Shown here: piece after piece, positions 17,984 to 18,489 of the stretch
Layout of the letters: each line of letters starts with the position of its first letter
How positions within the stretch are numbered: the first letter of the stretch is position 1
Position numbers and translations under genes: made by a program
DNA from: Opitutia bacterium Tous-C8FEB
GTDB lineage: Bacteria; Verrucomicrobiota; Verrucomicrobiia; Opitutales; Opitutaceae
NCBI GenBank assembly: GCA_002304435.1
Contig: NEUZ01000006.1
Location: 1 to 45,131, forward strand
Length of the DNA: 45,131 nucleotides
Direction: 5' to 3'
The notes under the pieces: model-generated
Database searches by the model: none
Told to the model about the DNA's origin: nothing
The model's input: only the letters and a program-made list of their open reading frames with translations

Positions 17984-18046
17984 GACGAAGTACATCGCTG
18001 AAAATGGGGCGGCCAACGGGATTTGAACCCGCGACCCCAAGATCCA
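17984..18046 (-). repeat. 63-bp perfect direct repeat, copy 1 (tRNA-His 3' part + start of GIY-YIG ORF)
   Basis: gacgaagtacatcgctgaaaatggggcggccaacgggatttgaacccgcgaccccaagatcca, identical to 18330-18392. Confidence 0.97.
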
Positions 18047-18075
18047 TTCTGCCGTACGGCAGAATGCTCTAACCG
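18004..18075 (-). pseudogene. Aberrant tRNA-His-like sequence: intact T-arm/3' acceptor/CCA, partial D-arm, anticodon region replaced by a palindrome
   Basis: Minus strand ...CGGTTAGAGC-ATTCTGCCGTACGGCAGAAT-GGATCTTGGGGTCGCGGGTTCAAATCCCGTTGGCCGCCCCA; no matching 5' acceptor strand. Confidence 0.8.
18045..18066. repeat. 22-bp perfect palindrome CATTCTGCCGTACGGCAGAATG
   Basis: Sequence equals its own reverse complement; sits at the anticodon-arm position of the pseudo-tRNA. Confidence 0.97.
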
Positions 18076-18341
18076 AGGGGTCCGAAGGCGTGTCGGCTGG
18101 CGGCGACAATGTCCTGACGTACGCGATGCCCGGAGCCGGCTTTAAAGTAGCGTTCCCGATGCATCGCTGCGGCGCGGGAGGGGAAAAGCTCCCAGTGGGC
18201 GACGTACGGCTGGAGCAGCTTCTCGCGCGTCGTGCGGGTGCCACCCTCGCAGTGGAGACGGTAACGGCGGATGAGGTGATCTGTATGTCCGACGTACGAG
18301 CGCCCGGTCACTGCGCAAACGAGGATGTAGACGAAGTACAT
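18069..18341 (-). CDS. GIY-YIG endonuclease, 90 aa, starting 9 nt after the tRNA-His CCA
   Basis: MYFVYILVCAVTGRSYVGHTDHLIRRYRLHCEGGTRTTREKLLQPYVAHWELFPSRAAAMHRERYFKAGSGHRVRQ; GIY (VYI), YIG (YVG), Arg, His and Glu (RERYFK) positions all present. Confidence 0.88.
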   Translation of the reverse strand: MYFVYILVCAVTGRSYVGHTDHLIRRYRLHCEGGTRTTREKLLQPYVAHWELFPSRAAAMHRERYFKAGSGHRVRQDIVAASRHAFGPLG

Positions 18342-18392
18342 CGCTGAAAATGGGGCGGCCAACGGGATTTGAACCCGCGACCCCAAGATCCA
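18330..18392 (-). repeat. 63-bp perfect direct repeat, copy 2 (within tRNA-His and start of the GIY-YIG gene)
   Basis: Identical to 17984-18046; period 346 bp. Confidence 0.97.
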
Positions 18393-18428
18393 CAATCTTG
18401 TGCTCTAACCAACTGAGCTATGGCCGCC
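18351..18428 (-). tRNA. tRNA-His(GTG), encoded CCA and G-1
   Basis: Minus strand GGCGGCCATAGCTCAGTTGGTTAGAGCACAAGATTGTGGATCTTGGGGTCGCGGGTTCAAATCCCGTTGGCCGCCCCA; cloverleaf folds; anticodon GTG in loop TTGTGGA; G-1 with discriminator C73. Confidence 0.95.
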
Positions 18429-18489
18429 GTAAAGGGTCGGAAAACGTCGGGGCCGGCGCCGGGACTGTCAACCCATTCCTCGGGCGGTT

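Follow-up and report, generated by a model that had tools for sequence, protein, structure and literature searches.

The anticodon region of tRNA genes is a homing target of group I introns, an intron endonuclease of this kind having reportedly been described by Bonocora and Shub in 2001 for the anticodon region of a bacterial tRNA-fMet gene (cited in PMC3984707). Small nuclease genes accompanied by palindromes are found in the REP/RAYT systems, where the RAYT proteins are HUH tyrosine transposases. Proteins of the UPF0213 and Slx1 type are, to our knowledge, seen as repair or structure-specific nucleases or as proteins of unknown function, and not as parts of tRNA-linked elements. Free-standing GIY-YIG homing endonucleases, among them SegB of phages T4 and T6, adjoin tRNA genes of many isotypes, and in the available text of that study tRNA and nuclease are amplified together in tandem (PMC13096335). 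In fungal mitochondria the mORFs of Allomyces atp6 and of Glomus atp6, atp9, cox2 and nad3 are described, in the sections available, as endonuclease ORFs within a gene that bring in a foreign 3' part to give a working hybrid, the native 3' part staying downstream (PMC3630166). The 2006 survey of the GIY-YIG superfamily reports no tRNA-linked layout in its parts on tRNA and gene neighbourhood (PMC1564403). No earlier description in bacteria was found in the literature searched, most subscription papers and preprints lying outside it, and because this coverage is incomplete the novelty of the arrangement described below is probable rather than certain.

The locus studied here lies in a window of 45,131 nucleotides (the whole stretch of DNA that was analysed), contig NEUZ01000006.1 of Opitutia bacterium Tous-C8FEB. 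Like the mORFs, it would have a foreign or rebuilt gene part upstream and the native remainder downstream of the nuclease ORF; unlike it, the mORFs are neither tRNA nor bacterial, lie in protein-coding mitochondrial genes, encode LAGLIDADG or GIY-YIG enzymes and have no hairpin reported in the sections available (PMC3630166). Free-standing GIY-YIG genes with tRNAs of many isotypes, and tandem units of tRNA and nuclease, are shared with the SegB type, but the SegB type is phage-borne with no hairpin half-tRNA noted in the available text (PMC13096335), while the window protein is nearer to UPF0213 and Slx1 and its tRNA-linked pattern is absent from viral contigs. The tRNA group I introns resemble the locus in the target presumed for it and differ in that splicing keeps the gene functional, whereas here a replacement tRNA would do so and there is no intron. 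With the REP/RAYT systems the locus shares a small nuclease gene and palindromes, although its protein is of the GIY-YIG type and its hairpin is fixed in a tRNA arm. The UPF0213/Slx1-type proteins (1ZG2, 1YWL, 4XLG) are the closest to the window protein in both sequence and fold. So far as the mORFs, SegB and the tRNA-fMet intron system are known from the texts available, the combination seen here is absent from all three.

The coordinates of the features are given in Table 1. An earlier note, made from the sequence alone, had proposed an intact tRNA-His(GTG) with encoded CCA followed after 8 nt by a 90-aa GIY-YIG ORF with the canonical motif; the tRNA was borne out by ARAGORN and Rfam and the ORF by its Pfam match and by the invariance of the motif residues in relatives, the gap from CCA to ATG being 9 nt on measurement. 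The perfect 63-bp direct repeat was exact on re-checking, and comprises the tRNA 3' half, the spacer and the first 12 nt of the ORF, the two copies being spaced 346 bp apart. The stop codon TAG of the ORF lies in GGTTAGAGC (18066-18074), and it does fall within the second tRNA-like sequence, in the D-arm piece. The reading frame is open back through the tRNA as a 108-aa ORF starting from TTG, which is unremarkable and gives no sign of importance. The unit measures approximately 320 bp and contains a single ORF; no gene for a tyrosine or serine recombinase was found inside it, and the integrase that the note had found lacking is not needed to explain the layout. No Rfam intron match was obtained at E-values up to 1, and the tRNA-His is uninterrupted. 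Inspection of the sequence ahead of the ORF revealed no promoter or terminator besides the TTGACA at 18466-18471. Rfam gave the tRNA and one antisense match at the locus and nothing else. The antisense match, to RF04354 (Plastid-ycf2 5'UTR), covers 18353-18427 on the plus strand below the family cut-off, and suggests that this family may model antisense tRNA.

Table 1. Features of the tRNA-His/GIY-YIG locus in the window
Feature	Position	Strand	Basis
TTGACA, probable -35 element of the promoter ahead of the tRNA (predicted)	18466-18471	minus	sequence
Intact tRNA-His(GTG), CCA encoded	18351-18427	minus	ARAGORN; Rfam RF00005, 72 bits
9-nt spacer, CCA to ATG	18342-18350	minus	sequence
GIY-YIG nuclease ORF, 90 aa	18069-18341	minus	Pfam GIY-YIG, E 5.6e-10
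63-bp direct repeat, upstream copy	18330-18392	minus	100% identity
63-bp direct repeat, downstream copy	17984-18046	minus	100% identity
Second, incomplete tRNA-His copy	18005-18074	minus	sequence
D-arm segment GGTTAGAGCA of the second copy, giving the ORF its TAG stop	18065-18074	minus	sequence
22-bp perfect palindrome CATTCTGCCGTACGGCAGAATG, replacing the 5' half of the anticodon arm	18045-18066 (18-nt insert 18047-18064)	minus	sequence
tRNA-His 3' half, position 35 to CCA	18005-18046	minus	sequence

The same parts were present in independent assemblies. A contig of G009 contained the parts of the locus up to the ORF, a contig of G021 contained the ORF end through the half-tRNA with 3.2 kb of flank at 87% identity, and the layout occurred three times in tandem in the single-contig 5.96-Mb genome G029. 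An assembly artefact is therefore unlikely and was rejected, and the repeat, for which the earlier note had allowed an assembly error, can be taken as real.

An alignment of 38 relatives of the protein revealed that V4, Y5, L7, Y16, G18, R26, H30, E63 and K67 were invariant. The GIY and YIG motifs, the central Arg, the C-terminal Glu and the fold of approximately 90 aa place it in the GIY-YIG superfamily, and the predicted structure consists of a single GIY-YIG domain (pLDDT 90.7) with no extra region. The profile search gave UPF0213 at 7e-19, Slx1 at 1e-8 and I-TevI at 0.0097; the nearest matches in the structure search were Slx1 and UPF0213, none with an E-value below 0.001. Known homing endonucleases carry a DNA-binding part. 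The window protein is a bare catalytic domain of about 90 aa, nearer to UPF0213 and Slx1 than to the I-TevI/Seg enzymes and without their NUMOD DNA-binding region.

In the organism's own genome each of the three GIY-YIG domains found follows a tRNA encoded on the same strand, at distances of 10, 157 and 191 nt (coordinate difference). Among 57 related genomes, 45 of the 86 small GIY-YIG genes were within 500 nt of a tRNA, compared with 0 of 42 UvrC GIY-YIG domains (p = 9e-11, with loci treated as independent). The tRNA was upstream and on the same strand in 41 of these 45, and at least one tRNA/GIY-YIG pair occurred in 23 of the 35 genomes having a small GIY-YIG gene. A sequence pattern consisting of a tRNA 3' end and then a GIY-YIG start within approximately 30 nt gave one match in the window and none in 100 shuffles. 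It was found in 9 of 286 genomes of the same class, where the reversed pattern gave 0, and in at least 118 DNA stretches among GTDB species of many phyla, the hosts including Verrucomicrobiota, Chloroflexota, Acidobacteriota, Nitrospirota, Bacteroidota, Armatimonadota and Omnitrophota, several Patescibacteria and many Pelagibacteraceae. A chance neighbourhood is ruled out by the UvrC control, the shuffles and the reversed pattern. Carriage as phage or plasmid cargo was also rejected, there being no match in 2.9 million viral contigs and no phage protein match, and plasmid matches only to distant relatives. The recurrence of tRNA-adjacent GIY-YIG starts in relatives, which the earlier note had put forward as a check, agrees with its proposal of a minimal element linked to a tRNA whose gene stays functional. 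As the association is general across relatives and phyla, the contrary case of homologs with no tRNA association does not apply.

The downstream copy had been described as a rebuilt tRNA 3' half. The 3' half is present, but the D-arm piece and the 22-bp palindrome that accompany it had been overlooked: in this copy tRNA positions 27-34, the 5' half of the anticodon arm, are swapped for a hairpin. It is instead best read as an amputated half with a hairpin, the upstream intact tRNA being the rebuilt or imported copy. The tRNA 3' end had been the suggested target, but the breakpoints described below point to a break within the anticodon arm. The palindrome of the window recurs in G021 and G015, and CATTCTGCTGGCCAGCAGAATG occurs in G019 and G017.

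Judged from its sequence, the window locus is probably, if not securely, one copy of an element that is selfish, is driven by its nuclease and enters tRNA genes in a homing-like manner. For such an element we infer the following course of cleavage, repair and movement. The ORF would be transcribed off the tRNA promoter, as the tail of the tRNA transcript, and the small GIY-YIG nuclease would attack a resident gene for a tRNA of that isotype, breaking its DNA in the anticodon arm. Repair would copy the element in with the two tRNA halves as homology arms, giving a complete tRNA (imported or rebuilt) and the nuclease ORF, and behind them the D-arm piece with the hairpin, attached to the 3' half cut off from the resident tRNA; the hairpin would strip the target from this leftover copy. 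With tRNA halves as homology arms, spread between distant hosts would be possible. A break in the resident anticodon arm and repair from an element-bearing copy, one with a complete tRNA, the nuclease ORF and a tRNA remnant containing a hairpin, is most likely the simplest account of all forms. Counting against the homing-like reading, the nuclease has no obvious DNA-binding region, some hairpins lie in other arms, and the intact tRNA still has the presumed target, so that self-cleavage must somehow be avoided.

The hallmark of the element is the half-tRNA with a hairpin. Outside tRNA-Glu, a second tRNA 3' part was present behind the ORF in 57 of 79 rows, a count that includes array-internal copies and counts arrays more than once; among tRNA-Glu rows, of which the sampled ones were Pelagibacteraceae, it was present in 0 of 46. 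Of these 57 rows, 36 have a stem of at least 6 bp immediately ahead of the second 3' part, and the strongest stems are rarely matched in random windows taken from these loci. The hairpin arms are often TCCCGAC...GTCGGGA or CCCCGAC...GTCGGGG, with the general form (T/C)CCCG...CGGG(A/G). With Ser and Leu tRNAs left aside, both boundaries could be placed in 32 cases, and 27 of them have a replaced interval that touches the anticodon loop; a few loci have the hairpin in the D or T arm instead. The breakpoints recur per isotype in distant hosts, that of tRNA-Asn being 24/35 in both Chloroflexota and Verrucomicrobiota, and others are 26/35 for His, 38/47 for one Met type and 27/43 for another. The ORF stop codon is part of the half-tRNA in many loci. 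Other forms were also found: tandem arrays of ORF and half-tRNA (Arg, three times, in the single-contig genome G029; Ala, three times, in L197), a mirror form at tRNA-Pro in which the ORF lies between a 5' half and the intact tRNA, and, in G015, G019, G020 and G029, a tRNA 5' half with a hairpin ahead of the intact tRNA.

The main rival to the homing-like reading is a hairpin-directed, REP-like mechanism. The nuclease would act in a structure-specific, Slx1-like way on hairpins in single-stranded DNA and carry palindromes along with its own gene; insertion would fall at tRNA genes since these fold into hairpins, and tRNA replacement would be a by-product. The stems and their recurring form are consistent with this, as are the nearest structures, Slx1 and UPF0213, and the tRNA-free small GIY-YIG genes flanked by palindromic repeats such as TGTCATTCTGAGCGCAGCGAAGAATCCA. 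However, the hairpin motif CCCGACNNNGTCGGG is not dispersed, having 0-9 copies per genome, some of them at these loci, which does not support its identity as a dispersed REP; the high-copy palindromes and HUH transposase of the REP/RAYT systems are thus not seen here, the protein being GIY-YIG. The breakpoints are also fixed per tRNA isotype and Pelagibacteraceae loci have no half-tRNA, and we regard the hairpin-directed mechanism as unlikely.

The origin of the intact tRNA can be followed in G017. On contig C190 the intact tRNA-His reads GCGATCA...TGGTCGC, with CCAGA/TCTGG as its anticodon stem; behind it come the ORF, the hairpin and then a 3' half whose end is TTGGCCGCCCCA. This 3' half and the flank after it match contig C248 of the same binned genome, which may be two strains. 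On C248 the half is part of a whole tRNA-His (GCGGTCA...TGGCCGC, stem CAAGA/TCTTG), the flanks of the two contigs being 96.8% identical over 156 nt. The intact tRNA of C190 differs from the tRNA-His of C248 in the acceptor and anticodon stems, and these sequences are best explained if the half-tRNA is what is left of the resident gene and the intact tRNA is of foreign origin. At L123 (Thr), L124 (Gly), L125 (Ser) and L221 (Val) the half-tRNA and the intact tRNA differ at 5-9 of 28 positions with 5/5 T-stem pairs kept, and the 5' acceptor strand of the intact tRNA, where readable, pairs better with its own 3' strand. A foreign part upstream and a native part downstream of the ORF, as in the mORFs, is therefore seen in G017 and, by the compensatory T-stem changes, in these four loci. 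Since the half-tRNA at several loci belongs to another functional tRNA, one that shares the isotype, the intact tRNA there looks imported. At 27 further loci, one being that of the window, the sequence from the T-arm to CCA is identical in both copies, and tRNA origin at these cannot be read for that reason.

That identity, together with the perfect 63-bp repeat of the window and the tandem arrays, would fit a local duplication, in which a GIY-YIG gene lay behind a tRNA and the 3' end of that tRNA was copied by slippage or unequal crossing over, the hairpin being a product of decay or a terminator and the unit having no mobility. Half-tRNAs derived from another functional tRNA, in G017 and the loci with compensatory changes, already disfavour such an origin, which also leaves unexplained the anticodon-arm hairpins of independent loci and the occurrence at other tRNAs in many phyla. 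Local duplication is accordingly considered improbable.

The nuclease is under purifying selection, with dN of 0.014-0.212 against dS of 0.167-5.2, the larger dS values being saturated, and dN/dS of approximately 0.04-0.13. Within the genus the tRNA-His is mostly without the element, which is present in G000, G009, G017 and G019, partly present in G021 and decayed in G012. Because of this patchy occurrence fixed vertical inheritance, named in the earlier note as evidence against mobility, does not apply. The note had also proposed comparing relatives for an empty tRNA-His site. Most have the tRNA without the element, but the closest of these, G007, is rearranged downstream and was rejected as a clean empty site: its upstream side is orthologous (97% over 106 nt into the tRNA) with no nuclease, and an insertion-sequence-like region lies behind the tRNA. 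The window copy is not brand new, as G021 shares the insertion and the 87% identical flank. The D-arm piece, hairpin and 3' half (approximately 70 nt) are identical in G000 and G021, which suggests constraint or gene conversion.

Selection on the nuclease and the conservation of the half-tRNA and hairpin within this more divergent flank are also compatible with a host-serving nuclease in a tRNA operon, acting in tRNA quality control, stress or defence, for which the half-tRNA would be a regulatory or decoy 3' tail. Many Pelagibacteraceae species with a GIY-YIG gene behind tRNA-Glu and no half-tRNA point the same way. Set against this are the patchy and decaying occurrence in one genus and the many isotypes, and a host role appears very unlikely. 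That the locus is what remains of an ordinary integrative element inserted at a tRNA att site is highly improbable: a directly repeated tRNA 3' half is what att sites usually show, but these units are only about 320 bp long with a single ORF, are found intact across many phyla, have no recombinase, and have a repeat that reaches the anticodon and comes with a hairpin.

The nuclease tree, which has few resolved forks, tracks tRNA isotype more closely than expected by chance: it required 26 changes of isotype with Glu left out, compared with at least 33 in all 300 shuffles (mean 37.5). For phylum it required 23 changes against a shuffle mean of 27.9, a weaker signal than for isotype. We tentatively propose, with doubt slightly ahead of conviction, that such loci may be phylum-spanning and previously undescribed minimal mobile elements (about 320 bp, one nuclease of 80-90 aa) that home into tRNA genes and replace the tRNA, the tRNA halves serving as universal homology arms and the hairpin protecting the leftover copy. 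If this is true, very small elements with neither integrase nor intron invade tRNA genes and swap them between many bacterial lineages, and a nuclease has put foreign copies in the place of some essential tRNA genes. It would also give a role to many ORFs annotated as 'GIY-YIG nuclease family' with no function, and provide a naturally occurring means of replacing sequences at tRNA loci.

Several further arrangements were observed. In Pelagibacteraceae (L117, L121, L122 and others, approximately 46 rows) the GIY-YIG ORF starts about 8-23 nt behind tRNA-Glu(TTC), and a further ORF comes directly after it in the loci inspected; this SAR11 form is possibly domesticated or ancient. In the organism's own genome two convergent tRNA-Ser genes (CGA, GCT), with downstream sequences that are mutual inverted repeats, enclose a second GIY-YIG gene (L001:1255-1978, C13), and the tRNA arrangement is similar in G009 and G015. 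In a second class (L035, L023, L017, L047 and similar) the GIY-YIG genes lie about 34-370 nt behind a tRNA with direct repeats on both sides; these repeats start within the final bases of the tRNA or immediately ahead of them, and several have a hairpin. The tRNA-free small GIY-YIG genes of L039, L041, L042, L049, L054 and L065 are flanked by palindromic repeats of the types TGTCATTCTGAGCG.AGCGAAGAATCC or TTGTCATTGCGAG, and a link between these repeats and the nuclease is possible. Finally, a lone 45-nt tRNA-His 3' half with no hairpin lies downstream of a transposase-like sequence in G007 (L292, C163, reverse strand near 1332), and looks like an ordinary attachment-site remnant.
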